Shown here: one piece after another, positions 33,143 to 61,487 of the stretch
How the letters are laid out: each line of letters opens with the position of its first letter
Numbering within the stretch: the first letter of the stretch is position 1
Origin: Ereboglobus sp. PH5-10
GTDB lineage: Bacteria; Verrucomicrobiota; Verrucomicrobiia; Opitutales; Opitutaceae
Direction of reading: 5' to 3'
Length of the DNA: 64,000 nt
NCBI RefSeq assembly: GCF_029504735.1
Contig: NZ_JAQFIP010000007.1
Span: 1 to 64,000, forward strand
Notes under the pieces: model-generated
Told to the model about the DNA's origin: nothing
The model's database searches: none
The model's input: the letters and a program-made list of their open reading frames with translations, nothing else
Program-made: the position numbers and the translations under genes

Positions 33143-34195
33143 ATGCCCGGTCACAACCTTGAAACCAGCATCCTCCGCGCGCTTCTCGAAGACCGCGCGC
33201 GCTTCATTTCGGGCGAGCAGCTTGCCGAGAATCTCGGCATCACGCGCGTCGCGGTTTGGCAGCATCTGCAAAAACTCCGCGCCGAGGGATTCGATTTCGA
33301 GGCGATTCGCAACGTCGGCTACCGCATCGCGAGCCTTCCCGAGTCGCCCCATGCCGCGCTTCTGCGCATCCTCGTCGGTCCGCGCAAACACACGCCGGCC
33401 ATCATCGTTCACGAAACGCTCGACAGCACCAACGACGAGGCCACGCGCCAGCTCGCCGCAAATTGCCCCGCGCCATTCATCGTGATTTCCCGCGCCCAAA
33501 CCAAGGGACGCGGACGTTTCGGACGCCCCTGGCACAGCAGGGAAAACGGCAATCTTTACATCACCTTCGCCTTTCGTCCGCGCGCCACTCCTTCGCACAT
33601 GCAAACCTTCACGCTCTGGATGGGCGTCAACATTTGCGATCTCGTCACGGCGCATGTGAAAAATACTCCCGGCATCAAATGGCCCAACGACCTTCTTTTC
33701 GGCACTCGCAAGGCCGGCGGCATGCTCACGGAGGCCCGCATCGATGCCGACCAGATACGCGACCTCATCTTCGGCCTCGGCCTTAACATCAACAGCGCGC
33801 CCGCCGGCTGGCCCGCCGAGCTTCGGCCCGTTGCGACTTCGCTCATTGAGCAAAACGACGGCGCCCCGCTCGACATGAACATCTTCACCGCCGCGCTCAT
33901 CACGCGCATTCTCGACGCCTACGAGCAATTCATCGACGAACCCGAGGCCACGGCGGCGACCCTCGCCGCGCTTTGGAAAAAACACGATCTCCTGCGCGGC
34001 AAACCCATCACCATTCTCTCCGGCAACGAACGCCTCACCGGTATCGCCGGCGGCATCGACCCCGAAGGCTCGCTCATCCTGAAACCCGAATCCGGCCGCC
34101 CCCAAAAAGTCCGCGCCGGGGAAGTCACAATTGAGAAAAATTCCAAATCCCAATATCCAAATTCCAAAGAAATCCCAAAAAACAAAACCCCATGA
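33143..34195 (+). CDS. birA: biotin operon repressor/biotin--protein ligase, C-terminus altered by a repeat
   Basis: 350 residues. N-terminal winged helix (I-S-G-E-Q-L-A-E-N-L-G-I-T-R-V-A-V-W-Q-H), then the ligase core with R-A-Q-T-K-G-R-G-R-F-G-R (biotin/AMP loop), W-P-N-D-L and G-G-M-L-T-E. The last domain ends with R-A-G-E-V-T-I-E-K. The final 18 or so codons (N-S-K-S-Q-Y-P-N-S-K to the stop) are translated from the left inverted repeat of the four-helix-bundle cassette, which also supplies the stop. The stop overlaps the next gene's ATG. The core enzyme should be unaffected. Confidence 0.93.
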   Translation: MPGHNLETSILRALLEDRARFISGEQLAENLGITRVAVWQHLQKLRAEGFDFEAIRNVGYRIASLPESPHAALLRILVGPRKHTPAIIVHETLDSTNDEATRQLAANCPAPFIVISRAQTKGRGRFGRPWHSRENGNLYITFAFRPRATPSHMQTFTLWMGVNICDLVTAHVKNTPGIKWPNDLLFGTRKAGGMLTEARIDADQIRDLIFGLGLNINSAPAGWPAELRPVATSLIEQNDGAPLDMNIFTAALITRILDAYEQFIDEPEATAATLAALWKKHDLLRGKPITILSGNERLTGIAGGIDPEGSLILKPESGRPQKVRAGEVTIEKNSKSQYPNSKEIPKNKTP

Positions 34196-34617
34196 AACCC
34201 CCGCCGGAAAATTTGGAAGCACGCACTGCCGAGTTTGCCGCAAACATCAGGTCGTTTGCGAGAAAACTTCCGCGAACCATTTCAAACATGGAGGACGTGA
34301 AACAGCTCGTCAGGGCGTCCGGCTCCGTTGCCGCCAATTGCATTGAAGCCAACGAATCCCTTGGTGAAAAAGACAAGCTGCTTCACTTTCAAATCAGCCG
34401 AAAAGAAGCCAAGGAATGCGGACTTTGGCTGCGACTTGTTCATATCGGTGAAGCCGCGGCGCTGGATAAGCAAAGAAATATTCTCGCGCAAGAATCTCAT
34501 GAGCTGCGTTTCATTTTGTCCGCTATCATTAAAAAACTGGAATAGTCATTTTTGAGGTTTTGAATTTCGTGATTTGAGATTTTTTTGAAATTTGGGCGTT
34601 GGGATTTGGAATTTTTC
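34135..34617 (+). mobile_element. four-helix-bundle cassette bounded by inverted repeats
   Basis: Left arm 34135-34190 begins GAAAAATTCCAAATCCCAA. The right arm, read on the minus strand from 34617, begins with the same 19 bases and stays alignable for about 55 bases. The arms are themselves made of a repeated word (attccaaa/atcccaaa). Only one gene (34192-34545) lies between them. The left arm replaces the end of birA and the right arm lies just before coaX. I see no clear target-site duplication, though TTGA stands beside the left arm and an inverted TTGAT beside the right. Confidence 0.6.
34192..34545 (+). CDS. four-helix-bundle protein (23S rRNA intervening-sequence protein family)
   Basis: 117 residues, all alpha. 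Landmarks of the family: R-T-A-E-F-A-A-N-I-R (helix 1), Q-L-V-R-A-S-G-S-V-A-A-N-C-I-E-A-N (helix 2, very conserved), K-L-L-H-F-Q-I-S-R-K-E-A-K-E-C (helix 3) and a last helix ending K-K-L-E. Relatives occur inside 23S rRNA intervening sequences and as the Avd accessory of diversity-generating retroelements; neither context is present here. The ATG overlaps the birA stop and the gene is enclosed in inverted repeats, suggesting it moves as a unit. Confidence 0.9.
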   Translation: MKPPPENLEARTAEFAANIRSFARKLPRTISNMEDVKQLVRASGSVAANCIEANESLGEKDKLLHFQISRKEAKECGLWLRLVHIGEAAALDKQRNILAQESHELRFILSAIIKKLE

Positions 34618-34641: not shown

Positions 34642-35421
34642 ATGTTATTTTGCATAGACATTGGCAACACCCACACGCACTACGGCGTCGTAGCCGAAGG
34701 CGACGGCGCGCGCGCGCAATACGACACGCCCACGCGCACCCTTGAGGACCCCGCCAGCGGCATCGGTCCGAAAATCGCCGATCTCCTCGCGCGCCAGCCC
34801 GGAATCATCGGGCTCGCTTACTGCTCCGTCGTTCCCGCCGCCACCGAGGCGCTCCGCCGCGTCCTCGCGCGCGACAAGTTTTCGCTTCCCGCGCTCCACC
34901 TCACGCACGACAAAAAACTCGGCGTCCCCATCACTTACCCGCGCCCGGGGGAAATCGGGCAGGATCGCCTCGCCAATGCCGCCGCCGCGCGCCTTCTCGG
35001 CGAGCTCCCCGCCGTCGTTATCGACATGGGCACGGCGGTCACATTCGACATCATCACCCGCGCGCACGGATACGAGGGCGGCATCATCGCCCCCGGCGTC
35101 GAGCTCATGCGCCGTTATCTCCACGAGCAAACCGCGCAACTCCCCCTCCTCGACGAATCAATCGACGTCACCCGCGCCGTCGGCCAGTCCACAATCGAGG
35201 CCATGCGCATCGGCACCGTGGTTGGTTTTGGCGGGATGATCCAGGCGCTTCTCGATACCGTGATCGCCGACCTTGCCAGGCGCGGCGAAACAACCCCGCG
35301 CATTTACAGCACCGGCGGTTCCGCCGCCCTCTTGCGCGACCGGCTCAAAACTCCCTTCGAGGTTGTCCCCGATCTCACGCTCCGCGGCCTCGCGGCCGCG
35401 TGGAAACTCAACCATGAATAA
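34642..35421 (+). CDS. coaX: type III pantothenate kinase
   Basis: 259 residues from ATG 34642. ASKHA fold: C-I-D-I-G-N-T-H-T-H (residues 4-13, phosphate 1), P-G-E-I-G-Q-D-R-L-A-N (about 105-115), V-I-D-M-G-T-A-V-T-F-D (about 128) and G-G-I-I-A-P-G (about 150), all typical of CoaX. First step of CoA synthesis, cytoplasmic. It starts 25 bp after the right arm of the four-helix cassette; the longer frame from 34585 translates that repeat. The end overlaps the PocR-AraC gene by 8 bp. Confidence 0.95.
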   Translation: MLFCIDIGNTHTHYGVVAEGDGARAQYDTPTRTLEDPASGIGPKIADLLARQPGIIGLAYCSVVPAATEALRRVLARDKFSLPALHLTHDKKLGVPITYPRPGEIGQDRLANAAAARLLGELPAVVIDMGTAVTFDIITRAHGYEGGIIAPGVELMRRYLHEQTAQLPLLDESIDVTRAVGQSTIEAMRIGTVVGFGGMIQALLDTVIADLARRGETTPRIYSTGGSAALLRDRLKTPFEVVPDLTLRGLAAAWKLNHE

Positions 35422-36664
35422 GACAAGAGGCCAGAGTGCCGGAGACCAGAAAACCAGGGGCCAAACCTCCGGCCTCCCTCCTCTTTTCCCCGGCATCCTC
35501 ACCCAGGTGGCGTTTGAAAAACTTGCAGCCCGCTACAAGCGCGCGCACGGTCTCGATCTCGCCGCCATCGACTCCGCCGGCAAGGTTCTCGCCGGTCGTA
35601 TCCATTGCGCGGATACAAAAACCGCCCGCGCCGCCGGTCCCTCAGCTTTCAGTCATTCAGCCTTTTTCAACCAGGCGCTCGAGGAAACTCTCCGCTGGGG
35701 CGAGCCCTGCATCATGTGCTGCCCTTGTGGAAACGCGCTCTGGGCCGTGCCCGTGATGCGCAACCAGCAAACGCTCGGCGGGCTTCTCGTTGCCGGCGTC
35801 CCCCTTGAGCCCGACGGCCCCGCCGGCGAGCTTGACCGCAGCCTGCTCTCGGCCAGTCACGGCCTCCTCAATCTTGCCGCGCGGGAAAACCTCACCAACA
35901 CCGCGCTCCTTGAGCAAAACCGCCTTGCGGCGCGCCGCGAGTCGGGTCGCGCCGAGGCCCTGCACGATCTCAAGGAACGCCTCTACGACGAAATCCGCAG
36001 CGCCTATCTTCACGAGGAACCCGCGCTCCTCGCCGCCATCCAGCGCGGCGAGCGCGCCGAGGCGCGCGGCATCATCAACCGCATACTCACGGCCATCTAC
36101 GCGCGCGGCGCCGGACGTCGCAGCCTGCTCAAAACCCTCTCGCTCGAACTCGTCGTCATGATGGCCCGCGCCGCGGTGCAAGCCGGCGCCGAACCCGAAA
36201 AAGTCCTCGGCCTCAACTACCGTTCGCTCACCGAGCTCGCCGACGTGCATTCACAGGAGGACCTTTCGCGCTGGCTCTGCGACATGCTCGAGCAGCTCAT
36301 CGACGCGATGGGCGCGCCCGCCGCGCACCCCAACGCCGTGCAACTCGCCCGCGCCGTCGCCCACATCGAGCAACACTACGCCAACGACCTCACACGCGAC
36401 GAAGTTGCCCGCGCCGCCGGTCTTTCCCCCGGGCATTTTTCGCACCTCATGCGCGAGCACGCCGGCGCCACCTTTACCGGGCTGCTCCTCCGCATCCGCC
36501 TCGACAACGCCCGCCGCCGCCTCGCCCGTGAAAACGCCCCTGTCGCCGAAATCGCCCAATCCTGCGGTTTCAGCGACCAAAGTTATTTCACCCGCGTCTT
36601 CAAAAAAGCCTTCAGTGAAACTCCCGCCGCCTACCGCCAGCGCACCCGTGGCGCGGTTTTGTAG
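35414..36664 (+). CDS. AraC-family regulator with PocR sensory domain
   Basis: 416 residues. The first 20 residues (M-N-K-T-R-G-Q-S-A-G and on) are encoded by a ccagag-type word repeat. Then a PocR domain (about 25-180) with H-C-A-D and the cysteine cluster E-P-C-I-M-C-C-P-C-G, then a helical linker, and a C-terminal AraC double helix-turn-helix (H-Y-A-N-D-L-T-R-D-E-V-A and S-C-G-F-S-D-Q-S-Y-F-T-R-V-F-K-K). PocR controls the pdu/cob microcompartment genes of Salmonella, so this is a candidate activator of the BMC locus 11 kb away; that link is inference. Confidence 0.85.
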   Translation: MNKTRGQSAGDQKTRGQTSGLPPLFPGILTQVAFEKLAARYKRAHGLDLAAIDSAGKVLAGRIHCADTKTARAAGPSAFSHSAFFNQALEETLRWGEPCIMCCPCGNALWAVPVMRNQQTLGGLLVAGVPLEPDGPAGELDRSLLSASHGLLNLAARENLTNTALLEQNRLAARRESGRAEALHDLKERLYDEIRSAYLHEEPALLAAIQRGERAEARGIINRILTAIYARGAGRRSLLKTLSLELVVMMARAAVQAGAEPEKVLGLNYRSLTELADVHSQEDLSRWLCDMLEQLIDAMGAPAAHPNAVQLARAVAHIEQHYANDLTRDEVARAAGLSPGHFSHLMREHAGATFTGLLLRIRLDNARRRLARENAPVAEIAQSCGFSDQSYFTRVFKKAFSETPAAYRQRTRGAVL

Positions 36665-49312: not shown

Positions 49313-49425
49313 TAATTTTCGATTTTCGATTCTCGATTTTGGATTGCGCGCTCCCGCGCGTGATCGAAGTCGGGGTGGGAGCGGCAGCTCCCAATCGAAA
49401 ATCGAGAGTCCAAAATCGAAAATCC
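49313..49425. repeat. inverted word-repeat element upstream of ackA
   Basis: The left arm is made of attttcgattctcgatt words (49315-49346) and the right arm of the inverse caatcgaaaatcgagag words, ending at 49425, directly before ATG 49426. The centre has hairpins GCGCGCTCCCGCGCG-like and GGAGCGGCAGCTCC. A core of GCGGCAGC-type hairpin followed by CCCAATC and cgaaaatc words recurs at 55961 and 56302. It replaces any Shine-Dalgarno region of ackA. Confidence 0.75.
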
Positions 49426-54660: not shown

Positions 54661-55935
54661 ATGCCCAAACCAGCCAAAGCCAAAAAAGCTCGCGCCCGCG
54701 CGACCAAGAAAAAATTGGTCGCCCCGGCCGCGTCGGGCTATGGCAATTTGCTGGGCAGCATCGACACCCTACTCGCAACCGCCCGCCGCCACACCGCGCG
54801 CGCCGTCAACGCCTGCATGACCGCGACCTACTGGCACGTCGGCCGCCACATCGTCGAATATGAGCAAAAGGGAGCCAACCAAGCGGAATATGGTGATTAC
54901 CTCCTTGAAACACTCGCCAATGATTTAACTGCAAAACACGGACGCGGTTTTTCAAAGCGAAACCTCCACTACTGCTGCTTGTTTTATCAATGTTTTGATT
55001 CCGAATGGATTTACAAAACAACGACTTGTGCGATTTCGGGTCAAATTGTGCAGACACTGTCTGCACAATCTTCCGTTGATTCCCAACAACTTACAAACTC
55101 ACCTTCCGCCACAGATACGCAACTCGTTCCCCATCAACGAGACAATTTGTTCGGCACCCCGCTCTCCGCCTTCGACCTCCCCACACTCGCCAAAGCCTTC
55201 CCGCTGCCCTGGTCGCATTACGTGATGCTTATCAGCCGCAGCCGTTCGCCCGAGGCGCGCGAGTTTTATCACCGCGAAGCCCTGCGCGGCGGATGGTCGG
55301 TGCGCCAGCTCGACCGCCAGATCGGCACGCAATTCTACGAACGCGCCGCGCTTTCGAAAAACAAGGCGGCGATGCTCAAAAAAGGCGAAACCCCGCGCGC
55401 CGGCGAACTCCTCACGCCCGACGAGGAAATCCGCGACCCGCTCGTCCTCGAATTCCTCAACCTCCGCGACGAATACTCCGAAACCGAGCTTGAGGACGCG
55501 CTCATCCGCCACCTCGAAACCTTCCTGCTCGAACTCGGCAACGACTTCACCTTCGTCGGACGCCAGCGGCGCCTCCGTCTCGACAACAAATGGTATCGCA
55601 TTGACCTCCTCTTTTTCCAACGCCGCCTCCGCAGCCTCGTGGTGATCGACCTCAAAGTCGGCGAGTTCACGCATGCCGACGCCGGCCAGATGAACCTCTA
55701 CGTCAACTACGCCCGCGAGCACTGGACGCATCCCGGCGAAAACCCGCCCGTCGGCCTCATCCTCTGCGCCGAGAAAAACGAAACCATCGCCCGCTACGCG
55801 CTCGACGGCCTCGAAACCAAAATCCAAGCCCGCGAATACAAGCACACCCTCCCCTCCGAAAAACTCCTCGCCGCCGAACTCGCCAAAACCGCAAAGCTGC
55901 TCGCGCAGCGAAAGCCTAAAAACCTGAAGACCTGA
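54661..55935 (+). CDS. DUF1016/YhcG-type PDDEXK nuclease
   Basis: 424 residues. A Lys/Ala-rich basic N-terminus is followed by the DUF1016 N-terminal winged-helix region (Y-W-H-V-G-R-H-I-V-E-Y, L-L-E-T-L-A-N-D-L, G-R-G-F-S-K-R-N-L). A lower-GC linker (55000-55130) leads to the C-terminal part with S-H-Y-V-M-L-I, F-Y-H-R-E-A-L-R-G-G-W-S-V-R-Q-L and the nuclease core Y-R-I-D-L-L-F-F...V-V-I-D-L-K. This family often accompanies restriction-modification or mobile DNA. It interrupts the BMC operon, between the aldehyde dehydrogenase and BMC-P genes, and follows a hairpin repeat, suggesting insertion. Confidence 0.9.
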   Translation: MPKPAKAKKARARATKKKLVAPAASGYGNLLGSIDTLLATARRHTARAVNACMTATYWHVGRHIVEYEQKGANQAEYGDYLLETLANDLTAKHGRGFSKRNLHYCCLFYQCFDSEWIYKTTTCAISGQIVQTLSAQSSVDSQQLTNSPSATDTQLVPHQRDNLFGTPLSAFDLPTLAKAFPLPWSHYVMLISRSRSPEAREFYHREALRGGWSVRQLDRQIGTQFYERAALSKNKAAMLKKGETPRAGELLTPDEEIRDPLVLEFLNLRDEYSETELEDALIRHLETFLLELGNDFTFVGRQRRLRLDNKWYRIDLLFFQRRLRSLVVIDLKVGEFTHADAGQMNLYVNYAREHWTHPGENPPVGLILCAEKNETIARYALDGLETKIQAREYKHTLPSEKLLAAELAKTAKLLAQRKPKNLKT

Positions 55936-55960
55936 AGGCTGAAAAAACACCGGCGCGGCA

Positions 55961-56001
55961 GCGCCCAATCCAAAATCGAGAATCGAAAATCCAAAATTTG
56001 C
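55961..56001 (+). repeat. word-repeat element directly before BMC-P2
   Basis: GGCGCGGCAGCGCC hairpin, then CCAATC and cgagaatcgaaaatccaaaat words, ending 2 bases before ATG 56004. Same core as 49366-49425 and 56302-56382. Confidence 0.75.
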
Positions 56002-56003
56002 CC

Positions 56004-56285
56004 ATGAACCTTGCTCGCATAGACGGAACCATCATCGCCCCCGCATGCCATCCCAGCATGCGCGGCACGCGCACTGTCATATGCCAGCCGCTTGACGAAA
56101 ACGGCAACGACATCGGCAACCCCGTTCTCGCAATCGACACCCTTGGCGCGGGCCTTCACCAACGCGTCCTCATCAGCACCGACGGCTCGCGCACCCGCGA
56201 AATCGTCCGCGACAAACACAGCCCGCTCCGCAACCACATTCTTGGCGTCGTGGACGACGCCGGCGTAAATTCCAAATTCCAATAA
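56004..56285 (+). CDS. BMC-P (EutN/CcmL) shell protein 2
   Basis: 93 residues from ATG 56004: L-A-R-I-D-G-T-I-I-A, V-I-C-Q-P-L-D, A-I-D-T-L-G-A-G-L-H-Q-R-V-L-I, I-L-G-V-V-D-D-A-G. EutN fold. The last few residues (N-S-K-F-Q) and the stop are encoded by the attccaa word repeat that begins there, so the original C-terminus has been replaced. A TTG two codons upstream is possible but less likely. Confidence 0.93.
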   Translation: MNLARIDGTIIAPACHPSMRGTRTVICQPLDENGNDIGNPVLAIDTLGAGLHQRVLISTDGSRTREIVRDKHSPLRNHILGVVDDAGVNSKFQ

Positions 56286-56382
56286 CCAAATTCCAACCGA
56301 TCAGCGGCGCGGTAGCGCCCAATCGTTTCGAGGCCGCAGGCCGACAGTCTGCCAAATCGAGAATCGAAAATCCAAAATTCCA
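56266..56382. repeat. compound repeat element between BMC-P2 and BMC-P3
   Basis: Three pieces: attccaa/taaccaa words (56266-56300), a GGCGCGGTAGCGCC hairpin with CCAATC (56307-56325), and aaatcgagaatcgaaaatcc words (56354-56382), ending 2 bases before ATG 56385. It joins the word families of 34135 and 49313 in one element. Between lies a gaggccgcaggcc insertion. Confidence 0.75.
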
Positions 56383-56815: not shown

Positions 56816-57922
56816 ATGGCACAATTCCTCACAGCACGCGACGTCGAGAAACTCATTCGCAACGGCCAGCCCGTCCCGGCCGATGCCCGCCTCACACCCG
56901 GCGCGCACGATTATCTCCGCGACCACGGCCACTCCAAAATCGCCCCCGTGGGGGCGTCGCTTGCGACGCCCTCCGCCGCATCCGCGCCCGTCGCGGGCAT
57001 CCCCGGCAAAAAATACGACCCCGTTGTTCCCGACTACGAATACAAATGGACGCCCGGCGCCGACCCGAAAACACCCGCCGAAATCGCCGCGTTCTTCAAC
57101 TCGCCCGCCATCGTCGCCATCAAGCACCGCATGGTTGACATCGGCCAGCGCATGTGGGCTCGCAACTACACCGACGGCAACGGCGGCAACCTCACCGTGC
57201 GCGTCGGCGACAACCTCGTGCTCTGCACCCCCACGCTCATCTCGAAAGGCTTCATGAAGATGGAGGACATCTGCCTCGTTGACATGGACGCCAAGCAACT
57301 CGCCGGCGCGCGCAAACGCACCAGCGAATGCATGACGCACATCGCGATCATGAAGCGCCAGCCCCTCTGCAAATCCTGCTGCCACGCGCACCCCCCGCAC
57401 GCCACCGCGTTCGCCGTCGCCAAAGTGCAGCCCCCCACCTGCCTCATTCCCGAGGCCGACATCTTCCTCGGCAAAATCGCCATCGCCCGCTACGAAACCC
57501 CCGGCTCGCAACAAATGGCCGACACCGTCGGCGAAGTCGGCAAGGACAACCAGTGCGTCCTCCTCGCCAACCACGGCGTCATCACCTGGGGCAAGGACAT
57601 CGAGGACGCGTATTGGAAAATGGAAAACGCCGACGCCTACTGCCAGACCGTCTGGATCGCCTCGCAACTCGGCGGCGAGCTCGGCTCCGGCGTTGGCGGC
57701 GCGAACGCGCGCGAGTTCATCAAAATCCGCAAGGCCCTCGGCATGCCCGACAACCGCGAAGGCCTCAAGGAATGCGAACTGTGCGACAACAGCGAATTCC
57801 GCCCCGGCGTGATGTGCCAGGTTCCCGACGCCGCCCCCGCCGAGCCGGGCGCGAACCCCGAAGTCGAGGCCCTCGTGCAACGCCTCACCGGCGAAATCAT
57901 GAAACAACTCGGCGCGAAGTAA
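56816..57922 (+). CDS. BMC class II aldolase (deoxyhexulose-phosphate aldolase)
   Basis: 368 residues, about 150 longer than FucA. N-terminal extension F-L-T-A-R-D-V-E-K-L-I-R-N-G-Q and a linker, then the aldolase domain: G-N-G-G-N-L-T, K-G-F, H-A-H-P-P-H (zinc), L-L-A-N-H-G-V-I-T-W. The C-terminus V-E-A-L-V-Q-R-L-T-G-E-I-M-K-Q-L is an amphipathic helix fitting an encapsulation peptide. It should cleave fuculose- or rhamnulose-1-phosphate to DHAP and lactaldehyde. Residues about 46-53 in the linker are encoded by a 24-bp hairpin repeat also found before the DUF1016 gene. Confidence 0.92.
   Translation: MAQFLTARDVEKLIRNGQPVPADARLTPGAHDYLRDHGHSKIAPVGASLATPSAASAPVAGIPGKKYDPVVPDYEYKWTPGADPKTPAEIAAFFNSPAIVAIKHRMVDIGQRMWARNYTDGNGGNLTVRVGDNLVLCTPTLISKGFMKMEDICLVDMDAKQLAGARKRTSECMTHIAIMKRQPLCKSCCHAHPPHATAFAVAKVQPPTCLIPEADIFLGKIAIARYETPGSQQMADTVGEVGKDNQCVLLANHGVITWGKDIEDAYWKMENADAYCQTVWIASQLGGELGSGVGGANAREFIKIRKALGMPDNREGLKECELCDNSEFRPGVMCQVPDAAPAEPGANPEVEALVQRLTGEIMKQLGAK
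56951..56974 (+). repeat. hairpin repeat inside the aldolase gene
   Basis: Exact 24-bp copy of 54617-54640, in frame in the linker after the N-terminal extension, coding for G-A-S-L-A-T-P-S. Confidence 0.8.
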
Positions 57923-57930
57923 GCACGCAC

Positions 57931-58062
57931 GGAGCGGCGTTCTCCAGGACGCCGGACGAGGCGCAACGCGCCTCGCAAAAAACCGTTCGAAAAACAAGAA
58001 AGGCAGAAAGGGCACGACTACGTCGTGTTCGGCGATCTGGAGATCGCCGCTCCGTTCAAGCC
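57931..58062. repeat. REP/BIME-type hairpin array, copy 1
   Basis: Hairpins GGAGCGGCG..., CGAGGCGCaaCGCGCCTCG, CACGACtaCGTCGTG and GGCGATctggAGATCGCC in order. The same order recurs at 60403-60548, and a single unit at 58781. It lies between the aldolase stop and the end of the REP-associated transposase. Confidence 0.85.
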
Positions 58063-58071
58063 GCCGCTCCG

Positions 58072-58740
58072 TCAACACATGCGTGCTCGTTCACCCTCGA
58101 ACAACACGAACTCGCTTTCGTTCAGTTTCGCCTTCTCCGGGTTTTTTCGAATGTAACGCACACAGCGGCCAAAGTGCGTTTTGTCGCGCACCATGCGATC
58201 GTAGTAATCTTTTTGCCAGCCGGGCCATTTGTCAGCCAATGCCTCCCTCAATTTGCGCGAGGTAAAACTTTTCCACGATTGCAGCAAGTCAGGCACTTGC
58301 TCGCCGTTGAGCGTGGCAAAGACCGCATGCACATGATTGGGCATGACAACAAACGCGAGTTGATGACAGCGCACGCCCTCGAAGTGTCGCAACGCCCCGG
58401 CGAGAATCGCGCGCGCGTCGGAATTTCGCAACGCGCAGCCGCCCATGCCTGCGTCGAGCCACGCCTCCATTTGGTTGGAAAACAGTTGGTGATATTCCGC
58501 CTCCTGCTCGGTTGTGTGAGGCGGCGGATTGCGTTTCAACCATGCGTCGCGATCCCAAATCCATCGCTCGCGCAACTCGCGCGGAACCGAATCGGCGAGG
58601 CGAAAGGTGACGAAATATGTCGCGCCCATTTGCTCCCAATGAGGCAGGCGGTTGCGGAGCATTGTGGTGTCCGCATAGGGGCTGAAGAAACGGAGTTCTT
58701 CCATGAGCGCGAAGCGTGGACGCGCGACAACTTGGGGCAA
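58072..58740 (-). CDS. REP-associated tyrosine transposase (RAYT, Y1/HuH)
   Basis: 222 residues. The HuH metal site is V-M-P-N-H-V-H-A-V near residue 140. The nucleophile Tyr is expected in the Y-I-R-K-N-P-E-K-A region near the C-terminus (V-R-Y-I-R-K-N-P). Family landmarks: Y-F-V-T-F-R-L-A-D-S-V-P, E-L-R-E-R-W, S-W-K-S-F-T-S-R-K-L. It is intact, unlike the copy at 12.4-13.2 kb, and flanked by REP units, its presumed substrates. ATG 58740 is preferred to the longer frames. Confidence 0.9.
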   Translation of the reverse strand: MPQVVARPRFALMEELRFFSPYADTTMLRNRLPHWEQMGATYFVTFRLADSVPRELRERWIWDRDAWLKRNPPPHTTEQEAEYHQLFSNQMEAWLDAGMGGCALRNSDARAILAGALRHFEGVRCHQLAFVVMPNHVHAVFATLNGEQVPDLLQSWKSFTSRKLREALADKWPGWQKDYYDRMVRDKTHFGRCVRYIRKNPEKAKLNESEFVLFEGERARMC

Positions 58741-58780
58741 GCATGAAACGCTCGCGGCGAAGCCATTACGGAGTCATTAC

Positions 58781-58809
58781 GGAGCGGCGACCTGGAGATC
58801 GCCGCTCCG
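58781..58809. repeat. single REP unit after the RAYT start
   Basis: GGAGCGGCGA-cctggaga-TCGCCGCTCC: perfect 10-bp stem. Same unit as in the arrays at 57931 and 60403. Confidence 0.85.
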
Positions 58810-58886
58810 GTTTTTTGGGCCGAGAATCGCACGGGACGGGAAAATCGTGAAAGCAAAGATTATTACCATCCGTTGCGGCAGACGCC

Positions 58887-60305
58887 CTATTGTTTGCCTT
58901 GAGCCTTGAGTGCTTCCTCAATCATCGCCCTTTGGGATTTCGCGCGTTCTATTTCCTCGGAAGGCTCCTTAACGCCTCGAGCATAAAGCCATTCAGTAAA
59001 CTGCTTGATGCTTTCCTCGGTCAAAACTGCATCCGCTGGCCATCCACCCCATCGTAAGGCCCTGCCGTGTTGAATGCCCACCATGGCTATTAACTTACCG
59101 TTTTTATAGAATTCCATCGTTGGCGTGCCACAGCACATGCAGACACCATTACTCGTTTTTCCATCAATCGTAATTAGCGAAATCAATCCAGCGATCTCAT
59201 CCTGACTGACTGTTTCGAATATGATTTTCTCCTTGTCATAACGCCGATGACATGTGCCGCCTGTCCTGACAATGAATCTGTCGGCGCTGGAAATAACATT
59301 TCGCAGCTCGGCAGCCCAGTCATACTGCACCACGCAATCGGGATGTTGCTTGCGAAAAGATTCCACCGCATCGGCGGGAACCGCTGTGCCAAACAAAACA
59401 AGGTTTTTCAGCTTTGGAAATCCACCGTCCGGCAAACTGGCAAGCGGCGACATCTGCACATTTAAGGCACTCAATCGCGGCAACCCTGCAAGCGGAGTAA
59501 TATCTGTGATCGCATTTCCCGCGATATGAATTTCCTTCAAATCATTTAGGTTCGATAAAAAATCAACCGCCCTCAATCCGGCCCAAGGCCAAAATAAATA
59601 CCGTAGCTTGCGAAATTGGGCCGGTATGCCTGGATCATCCAATTCATCCGCCTCCAATCGCAACGAAAGCCATTTCATGTCCTTGCTGCGCAATAGAGAT
59701 TCGCATTTGAACTGCAATTCCCTGGCGGAGACGTCAAGCGAGACGAAGCGTGTTGATTCTGAAAATAGACTATAAAGCTGCGCATCAGGATCGGCATTCC
59801 AGTCAACCTTGACCGCCCGGAAAGGAAGCCCGGGCAAAACCAGCGGCACTTTTTTCCATGCTGTATATTTTATATCAACAAACGTGTCTTCTCCTTGTAT
59901 CAAGCCGGTCTTGCTTCCCGATTCCTCGCTTATGCTCACACCCCACAGCCCTTTGATTTCCCGTTTGCTCAATTTTTTTAAACGTGGACGCCTCCATTTG
60001 CCATCCCAGTAATCCGGATAAAACGCAACGAGCTCCTTGCGGCCCGACGGCAATACACGGTGGAGTTTGGCCTTTTTGGAAAGCTTGTTTATAAAATTGA
60101 GATTGTCCGTGTCGCGAACCAACACCGGAGCCCCGGCTACTATCAAGACATCACCAACAGCAAGCTCCTCGGGAGTTTCCGAGAGCGAAAACCACGGGAC
60201 ATTCACGGCCTTTCCATCCACCATGACAGGCCAAGTGGCGGCGAAACCATGCGCACATAGGAACACCGAAAGAGCCATGCCAAGGAAGAATCGCAACGGG
60301 GCCAT
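58887..60305 (-). CDS. exported leucine-rich-repeat protein
   Basis: 472 residues with a signal peptide (F-F-L-G-M-A-L-S-V-F-L-C-A-H-G-F-A). The first 180 residues have no recognised domain. Residues about 195-310 show leucine-rich repeats (L-N-D-L-K-E-I-H-I-A-G-N-A-I-T-D-I-T-P-L-A-G-L-P and F-P-K-L-K-N-L-V-L-F). The C-terminal part has a C-M-C-C cluster and charged helices. GC content is lower than average. It sits between REP arrays and may have been carried there. Function unknown. Confidence 0.7.
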   Translation of the reverse strand: MAPLRFFLGMALSVFLCAHGFAATWPVMVDGKAVNVPWFSLSETPEELAVGDVLIVAGAPVLVRDTDNLNFINKLSKKAKLHRVLPSGRKELVAFYPDYWDGKWRRPRLKKLSKREIKGLWGVSISEESGSKTGLIQGEDTFVDIKYTAWKKVPLVLPGLPFRAVKVDWNADPDAQLYSLFSESTRFVSLDVSARELQFKCESLLRSKDMKWLSLRLEADELDDPGIPAQFRKLRYLFWPWAGLRAVDFLSNLNDLKEIHIAGNAITDITPLAGLPRLSALNVQMSPLASLPDGGFPKLKNLVLFGTAVPADAVESFRKQHPDCVVQYDWAAELRNVISSADRFIVRTGGTCHRRYDKEKIIFETVSQDEIAGLISLITIDGKTSNGVCMCCGTPTMEFYKNGKLIAMVGIQHGRALRWGGWPADAVLTEESIKQFTEWLYARGVKEPSEEIERAKSQRAMIEEALKAQGKQ

Positions 60306-60402
60306 GCATGAAGTCTTTGCCCATGCTTTTAAGTTGCAAGGCGAATTGCGGCGCGTGAGGGGTGCGATTCAAAGTGATGTCACCAAAACTACGTGTGCGA
60401 TA

Positions 60403-60548
60403 CGGAGCGGCGATCTCTAGGTCGCCGGACGAGGCGCATCGCGCCTCGCAAAAAAACACTCACTCGAAAAACTGAAATGCAAAAAAGGACACGACTTCGT
60501 CGTGTCCGGCGACCTGGAGATCGCCGCTCCGTTCGAGCCGCCGCTCCG
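60403..60548. repeat. REP/BIME-type hairpin array, copy 2
   Basis: Same order of hairpins as 57931-58062 (GGAGCGGCG, CGAGGCGCatCGCGCCTCG, ACACGACttCGTCGTGT, GGCGACCTGGAGATCGCC) with small changes. Ends just before the purC 3' end. Confidence 0.85.
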
Positions 60549-60569
60549 CAAAGGCATGCGCGTCCGTTT

Positions 60570-61487
60570 TTACCCAACCAGGTTTTTCAACGCCGTCAGG
60601 TATTTGGCCTGGGTGTCGGCGATCACGTTTTCGGGCAGGCGGGGGGCGGGCGGTTTTTTGTCCCAGTTGATTGCGAGCAGGTGGTCGCGCACGAATTGTT
60701 TGTCGTAACTCGGGGGTGATTGGTCGGGCGCGTAGCTTTCGGCGGGCCAGTAGCGCGAGGAGTCGGGCGTGAGCAGCTCGTCGATCAGGATCAGGTTGCC
60801 CGCCTCGTCGGTGCCAAATTCAAATTTCGTGTCGGCGAGAATCATGCCCGCCTGCTTGGCGCGGTCGTGCCCGAGCGTGTAGAGCGCGATGCTGGCGGCT
60901 TTCACTTTTTGATAGAGCGCGGCGCCGACGGCGGCCTCGCCTTGCGCGTCGTTGATCGGCTCGTCGTGCTGGCCTTTGGGTGCCTTGGTTGTCGGGGTGA
61001 AAATCGGTTCGGGCAGTTTGTCGGCCTGGCGCAGTCCGGCGGGGAGTTTGATGCCGCAGACATCGCCGGTTTTTTGATAGGAGTCCCAACCGCTGCCCAC
61101 GAGATAGCCGCGCACCACGCACTCGATTGTGAGGGGCTTGAGTTTGCGCACGATCATCGAGCGCAGTTGCAGGTCGCGATCCTTGATGCCGCGGCGCGCG
61201 AACTCGCCCGGCTGGTCGGGCAGCAGGTGGTTGGGCACGATGTTTGCCTTTGCCGCCTGCGCGAACCACCAGTTGCTCATTTGCGTGAGAATGACGCCCT
61301 TGCCGGGAATCCCGTCGGGAAGAATCACGTCGAAGGCCGAAAGCCGGTCGCTGGCCGTGATCAACAGGGCGTCCCCGAGGTCAAAGATGTCGCGGACTTT
61401 TCCCGAGGCGATTTTTGGGAATGGCAGCCCGTCGATGGAAGTGACGGCCTTGGCGGGCAGGGATGCGGCGATTTCGTCGTAGGTCAT
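60570..61487 (-). CDS. purC: phosphoribosylaminoimidazole-succinocarboxamide synthase
   Basis: 305 residues, the longer type of SAICAR synthetase. I-A-S-G-K-V-R-D-I-F-D-L-G near residue 27 (ATP loop), A-S-D-R-L-S-A-F-D, E-C-V-V-R-G-Y-L-V-G-S-G-W near 117 and L-I-D-E-L-L-T-P-D-S-S-R-Y-W near 215. It joins aspartate to CAIR in purine synthesis. It is alone and divergent from the histidine kinase gene, with 194 bp between starts. Confidence 0.96.
   Translation of the reverse strand: MTYDEIAASLPAKAVTSIDGLPFPKIASGKVRDIFDLGDALLITASDRLSAFDVILPDGIPGKGVILTQMSNWWFAQAAKANIVPNHLLPDQPGEFARRGIKDRDLQLRSMIVRKLKPLTIECVVRGYLVGSGWDSYQKTGDVCGIKLPAGLRQADKLPEPIFTPTTKAPKGQHDEPINDAQGEAAVGAALYQKVKAASIALYTLGHDRAKQAGMILADTKFEFGTDEAGNLILIDELLTPDSSRYWPAESYAPDQSPPSYDKQFVRDHLLAINWDKKPPAPRLPENVIADTQAKYLTALKNLVG

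Follow-up and report, generated by a model that had tools for sequence, protein, structure and literature searches.

The window is a 64,000-nucleotide stretch of Ereboglobus sp. PH5-10 (contig NZ_JAQFIP010000007.1, positions 1 to 64,000). We label its genome G000 and that of a sister species G001; C denotes contigs and L denotes loci. Between the host genes birA and coaX the window carries a gene for a four-helix-bundle (4HB) protein of 117 aa set between two inverted arms, and several gene-less heptamer elements lie further downstream (Table 1). Profile searches assigned the 4HB protein to PF05635 (41.2 bits for a cut-off of 33.8) and to TIGR02436 (62.5 bits for a cut-off of 24).

Table 1 Features of the birA-coaX locus and gene-less heptamer elements, in window positions
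Feature	Position	Strand	Remark
birA, host gene	33143..34195	+	codons from ~34139 onward derived from the element
Left heptamer arm, AAATTCC/AAATCCC units	34135..34187	+	most of the birA tail encoded within
4HB gene, PF05635 / TIGR02436	34192..34545	+	ATGA shared between its start and the birA stop
Right heptamer arm, inverted copy of the left	34565..34617	-	outer stem with the left arm (RNA fold)
coaX (type III pantothenate kinase), host gene	34642..35421	+	begins downstream of the right arm
AGAGGCC-type repeat stretch after coaX	35424..35463	.	absent from G001; resembles the arms of 4HB copy L002 (by eye)
Arms-only TTTTCGA-family element, no gene	49315..49416	.	related element with another interior at the G001 site
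Mosaic arms-only element, CTGAAGA-type left and TTTTCGA-type right arm	55920..55990	.	limits approximate, by eye
Mosaic arms-only element, AAATTCC left and TTTTCGA right arm	56280..56378	.	absent from G001

An earlier, sequence-only reading of the window had placed the 4HB gene inside long inverted repeats, and this was borne out. The arms are 53 nt each and match at 44 of 53 positions, the first 19 being identical, and the 150-nt flanks of the gene reached an inverted SW score of 37. In 400 dinucleotide shuffles of these flanks the mean score was 11.2 (sd 1.8) and the maximum 17, and of 300 random 320-bp pseudo-genes placed on contig C1 as a further control, two scored 18 or more. The same reading had claimed that the left arm supplies the tail of birA and that coaX follows the right arm. 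Both claims agree with our comparison: birA continues into the left arm and terminates with AGEVTIEKN plus the 17 residues SKSQYPNSKEIPKNKTP, its TGA overlapping the ATG of the 4HB gene, and the right arm ends at 34617, ahead of the coaX start at 34642. In other genomes birA ends in AGEVTIEKK (G006), which is taken as the native end, or in AGEVTLEKKTEGLKD (G001).

The AlphaFold2 model of the window protein comprises four helices with a mean pLDDT of 92.6. Its nine best PDB matches were chains of 2rld and 2gsc (query TM 0.72-0.79), structures with five chains each; the 4HB protein of 2GSC is XCC0516, encoded by X. campestris and described as a homopentamer (PMC4990558). By analogy with these solved relatives the window protein is probably a homopentameric ring. 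Chains of Avd, the accessory protein of diversity-generating retroelements (DGRs), share a similar fold with the model (8UB7 and 4DWL, TM 0.61-0.68); these matches have weak E-values (at least 0.08) and appear from rank 13 onward, after 2RLD, 2GSC and some four-helix bundles of plant inhibitors. Homology between PF05635 and Avd has been suggested, and retrohoming is described as requiring Avd (PMC10053308). Because the predicted fold resembles 2RLD and 2GSC, with Avd at a weaker rank, and in view of the part ascribed to Avd in retrohoming, a role in nucleic-acid transactions is plausible for the 4HB protein. To our knowledge it contains no catalytic domain, and an enzyme from outside must therefore be assumed. 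The sequence-only reading had noted that neither of the known partners of such proteins is present, which held for the DGR reverse transcriptase: none was found in the window's genome, where the single RVT_1 match lies outside the window locus. This match was rejected as a DGR partner, as it sits in what reads as a type I restriction-modification locus, and a reverse-transcriptase route has little support. The match itself, at L060 (G000:C27:17658-18137), is probably a defence reverse transcriptase since, by our own reading, it adjoins type I restriction-modification-like genes.

We found nine PF05635 matches in G000, seven of them above cut-off, and 7, 9 and 6 matches in three genus mates; in a sample of the window's phylum the family was present in 77 of 115 genomes. 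Arms were systematically scored at 125 4HB loci including the window copy, namely 76 of 80 named loci, 28 of the 29 loci L061-L089 and 21 genus loci, a non-random sample in which the phylum and named loci are best-scoring matches, some sharing one genome. Left out were the truncated named loci L092, L105, L117 and L128 and the short L086. Among the genus rows we left out L007, L028, L029 and L030 (whose long proteins match the profile in part and whose arms score 9-12), the close orthologues L010, L012, L015 and L026, the short locus L017, and G000:C3:90454, which is without a locus. A score of 18 or more between inverted flanks was reached at 98 of the 125 loci (median 24). Compared in direct orientation, these flanks reached it at 22 of 125 loci; swapped left-right pairs did so in 55 of 625 cases and coaX flanks in 1 of 29. 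Inverted arms at other 4HB genes, which the sequence-only reading had led one to expect, are thus common. The 27 loci without matched arms at this cut-off count against the reading of the unit as a cassette; one 4HB locus, L020, scored 9 in this test and 20 with a 250-nt flank.

Inverted flanks were also present at 18 of 20 further genome loci, picked from genomes with pattern hits (see below), and at plasmid loci hand-chosen from two sets of records: 9 of 12 loci (from 23 records) and 10 of 10 (from 27 records). The flanks of the second plasmid set extend 20-40 nt into the gene, so that its result is slightly favoured, and one of its members, L302, also scores 34 in direct orientation. The plasmid loci are mostly cyanobacterial, with some from Chloroflexota, Bacteroidota, Spirochaetota and Gemmatimonadota, and 2 of 50,697 phage records contained a relative. 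On cyanobacterial plasmids, 4HB genes lie between cas1 and cas2, cas10 and cmr3, and cas6 and cas4 (L218, L219, L297, L298); 4HB genes inside cas loci were noted earlier (PMC3936711). On a Nostoc plasmid the 4HB gene of L295, with GGGAGTA arms, lies between ribonucleotide reductase subunit genes and is antisense to both. We also recorded gene orientation relative to neighbours, which was 43 ++, 11 -- and 14 mixed at 68 named loci and 17 ++, 4 -- and 8 mixed at 29 coaX loci. Orientation was rejected as a discriminator after this comparison of 4HB and coaX loci, which relied on a crude ORF caller and in which the genus rows looked unreliable.

Arm sequence differs from copy to copy, and what recurs is a period of seven, the inversion and the match between the two arms of one copy. 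The best lag was 7 in 80 of the 87 arms compared (those scoring at least 20), and a strong period-7 stretch was present in 80 of 250 4HB flanks versus 0 of 58 control flanks. The window arms are themselves imperfect tandem 7-mers of the AAATTCC/AAATCCC type; given this and the variation between copies, a fixed AATTCCAAATCCCAA end motif was rejected. The proposal that gene and repeats form a self-contained unit stood in part: gene and arms act as one in the comparisons, but AATTCCAAATCCCAA arms occur only in close kin. The AAATTCC/AAATCCC words were found at the close relatives of the window copy, L008, L026 and L027, and in a window-like clade of three loci within a set of 96.

Across these 96 loci, protein identity correlated with arm similarity (Mantel r 0.536, a value that none of 2000 permutations reached), and with phylum labels assigned by hand the correlation was 0.514 for cross-phylum pairs alone; L101 and L153, which have stops in the translated stretch, were left out. 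One word, AGGAGTC, is common to L001, a copy in the window's genome, and L299, a copy on an Aulosira plasmid. Another word family, described by the pattern GANTKHS repeated 3.5 times, was present in 29 of the 115 phylum genomes. PF05635 was found in 28 of these 29 genomes versus 49 of the 86 without such arrays (Fisher p 2.3e-5, a generous value because the genomes are non-independent). The backward pattern, meant as a control, hit 17 of the 115 genomes; it probably describes period-7 arrays as well and is therefore not a clean control. The one array-bearing genome that lacks a PF05635 match at E 0.001 is G041, with 123 pattern hits; several of its contigs start in arrays, and a gap in the assembly may account for this. 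Of 11 other genomes examined, four have the GANTKHS word next to a 4HB copy: a pattern match showed it in G122 and G132, and inspection by eye, with the words in direct orientation, in G133 and G103. In the remaining seven (G138, G050, G100, G048, G005, G017 and G109) it was not beside the one to three 4HB copies examined, and each of these genomes has further 4HB copies or other words. In G133 (L253) and G103 (L252), CGTAAAT heptamers flank 4HB copies in direct, not inverted, orientation.

Arms also occur without the gene. In 644 kb of G000 we counted 39 arrays of period 7, whereas the periods 5, 6 and 8-11 each yielded 0 to 8. The seven arrays in this sequence that contain AGGAGTC or its complement all cluster about the 4HB copy with that word, at C1 23.6-31.7 kb, a region that we interpret as the nuo operon. 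Around this copy stand four arms-only hairpins of the AGGAGTC word that have the sub-terminal CGGAACTTCGG in common with it, three without change and one with a single change; over this sub-terminal stretch one hairpin agrees with the 4HB copy in 34 of 35 nt. The TTTTCGA word gave 74 genome hits with at most one mismatch, overlapping hits included, and 0 hits with the backward pattern; nine pairs of hits, by hand count, are exactly 76 bp apart. TTTTCGA pairs hold small GC hairpins inside their arms, and the 4HB copy L005 likewise has them just inside its arms. For the window copy itself, the gene-less relatives seen were the mosaic element at 56280-56378, whose G001 counterpart is a short spacer with a ribosome-binding-site-like AAGGAGG, and similar stretches.

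Arms-only units of this kind are laid out like the paired palindromic repeats of REPINs, which raises the alternative that a Y1 (RAYT-type) transposase acting in trans moves a DNA element whose ends are the arms, with the 4HB gene as cargo or accessory. Matches to PF01797 are indeed present in all four genus genomes (8, 6, 6 and 42). Around the five Y1 loci examined out of these 62 matches (L290-L293 and window 57641-60868) there is, however, no period-7 array, and the arm word follows the 4HB protein; we therefore regard this alternative as very unlikely. One of the Y1 genes, at L290 in G003, has inverted non-heptameric flanks (score 23) and is possibly a RAYT with its own repeats.

A second alternative starts from RNA. 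The whole window element is predicted to fold with its arms paired as the outermost stem (-161.8 kcal/mol, z -4.4; none of 100 shuffles folded as well), and there is a precedent in the intervening sequence (IVS) of Coxiella, a 428-nt element with an S23p ORF and a 28-bp terminal stem that is excised by RNase III (PMC4990558). The 4HB unit could accordingly be a non-dispersing element of RNA processing, in which RNase III cuts the arm stem and the 4HB protein acts on RNA while ordinary recombination varies the spacers. Taken alone, this leaves the arms-only population unexplained. It also sits poorly with the fact that, of 54 named loci flanked by two co-directional neighbours, 11 are antisense to them, although the stem forms in either strand. 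We consider it distinctly unlikely.

To see how such units differ between close relatives, orthologous spacers of G000 and G001 were compared. The coaX gene of G001 is 97% identical to that of the window, and the birA-coaX spacer of G001 contains no 4HB gene and holds an arms-only hairpin of CTGAAAG-type words that starts where the left arm of the window starts. The empty birA-coaX site and the target duplication envisaged by the sequence-only reading were thus not recovered. No element-free site with matching flanks was found in the comparison with the sister species, and no target-site duplication was seen by eye at the sites compared; where the species differ, the spacers appear replaced rather than interrupted, and for this reason no clean empty site is left. 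At an ABC-transporter spacer whose flanks are 96-98% identical, G000 and G001 have different 4HB units, with the words TTTTCGA and GAATGCG, respectively. About 1 kb away, a second spacer holds an arms-only hairpin, of TTTTCGA in G000 and of AATGCGG in G001. Each hairpin resembles the 4HB arm of its own genome (31 of 31 nt identical in G001, score 27 in G000), versus scores of 9 and 10 across species, and for each arm 1 of 300 random 150-nt windows scored 20 or more. In three other spacers within ~3.3 kb, heptamer-like elements, 4HB copies among them, also differ between species.

We compared 21 hand-chosen sites, 18 of which gave a syntenic pair. By our own reading, at 11 of the 18, including all the nuo-operon sites, the array of one species is the same as that of the other or closely related to it, and 7 differ. 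Three differences between G000 and G001 were noted besides. The TTTTCGA hairpin at G000:C1:21433-21563 has as its G001 counterpart a different inverted repeat of ACACGGAG-like words. At G000:C7:86937-86967 an AATCCGC heptamer array is 30 nt longer than in G001, apparently within a coding sequence and preserving the frame. Within the window, a 2.6-kb stretch at 57940-60568 is absent from G001; on its - strand, positions 58144-58371 match PF01797 (Y1 transposase).

These comparisons also bear on the possibility that nothing moves, the heptamer hairpins being born and homogenised in place through polymerase slippage and template switching between arms, with the 4HB gene an ordinary operon gene. 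At G001:C1 ~1586535-1586555 a newly-born-looking array of TAATTCC-type 7-mers lies between two copies of CTTACTTTC, of which G000 has one; with CTTACTTTC flanking the inserted 7-mers, it resembles a local duplication. For L002/L011 and L008/L027 the arms match clearly better within a copy (0.79-0.96) than between species (0.60-0.76), an excess that is clear in these 2 of 11 orthologous 4HB pairs and not clearly so in the other nine. Slippage has moreover been proposed for abundant heptamers (PMC4692102). Origin in place does not account readily for an arm word that tracks protein type across phyla, for dispersed and nearly identical arms-only copies with a fixed 76-bp spacing, for whole units that differ, gene included, at one orthologous spacer, or for a neighbouring hairpin that differs along with its local 4HB unit. 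On balance we find it unlikely, though not far-fetched.

We favour, with a probability of roughly 0.6, the view that the unit is a mobile cassette, kin to the IVS elements of 23S rRNA, that gives rise to gene-less derivatives and encodes a 4HB protein recognising the heptamer arms of its own copy. At the level of sequence, the comparisons document the unit architecture, the period of seven, the co-variation of protein and arms, the arms-only relatives and the whole-unit differences at orthologous spacers; that these species differences record movement is what we infer from them. Counting against this view are the loci whose arms do not match, the failure to find a target duplication, the GANTKHS word beside 4HB copies in 4 of the 11 genomes, the G041 exception, the Y1 matches in every genus genome and the arrays that both species share at 11 of 18 sites. 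In the mechanism that we propose, one 4HB gene between two inverted arrays of 7-nt words would constitute the small mobile cassette, and the 4HB protein, probably as a pentameric ring, would bind its own arms, recognising them as a folded hairpin of RNA or single-stranded DNA. The folded strand would be the moving form, and replication or recombination enzymes of the host would copy it into other operon spacers, at short range along an operon. An incoming hairpin would often replace the resident spacer, and arms-only derivatives would travel in trans and may settle near their parent.

More tentatively, and at somewhat less than even odds, these cassettes may form an undescribed class of mobile element whose sole gene encodes a 4HB protein reading a self-specific 7-nt arm code. 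With neither transposase nor reverse transcriptase of its own, such a class would spread along operons and be exchanged unit by unit, and a large part of the bacterial heptamer repeats that still lack an explanation could stem from it. Linking the 4HB gene to heptamer arms also connects two puzzles, the role of the widespread S23p/four-helix-bundle genes and the origin of intergenic heptamer repeats. If the cassette reading is right, mobile units reshape the spacers of operons and the ends of genes, and the correspondence between protein type and arm word allows binding to be tested directly.

Several known systems share parts of this organisation. REPIN/RAYT systems consist of an autonomous gene between palindromic ends together with many gene-less derivatives that have the same ends. 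The gene-less derivatives described here similarly share their ends with other 4HB copies of the window's genome; in contrast, the enclosed gene encodes a PF05635 four-helix bundle and not a Y1 transposase, and the ends are freely varying heptamer arrays. The 23S IVS elements of Leptospira and Coxiella come close in other respects, with one gene of the same family, inverted stem-forming ends and no recognised enzyme. Their length is comparable (428 nt in Coxiella, 483 bp for the window element), and the window arms are likewise predicted to pair as a single stem around the ORF. IVS elements have been described as selfish, and their ORF has been proposed to act in mobility (PMC4990558). The window element differs in sitting between birA and coaX and not in a 23S rRNA gene, and 4HB units more generally differ in occupying spacers of protein operons, in their copy-variable 7-nt tandem arms and in having arms-only derivatives.

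The heptameric repeats of Xanthomonas, Nostoc and Beggiatoaceae are, like the arms, intergenic arrays of 7-mers. In X. campestris, 186 patterns containing GGGAATC and 70 cases of two convergent sites have been counted, and the heptamers of Xanthomonas and Nostoc are described as generally not found with mobile elements (PMC4692102). In the passages of that paper that describe them, these heptamers are, in contrast to the arms, not tied to a 4HB gene; a lead towards such a link in X. campestris is XCC0516. A MITE with a 23-nt minisatellite (PMC4596501) has a different repeat unit. Among titles and abstract openings from one open-licence library we recognised no report that joins the 4HB family with heptamer arms. 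What was already known, then, is the 23S IVS, with the same protein between inverted ends, and the heptamer repeats; what appears new is the joining of the two.
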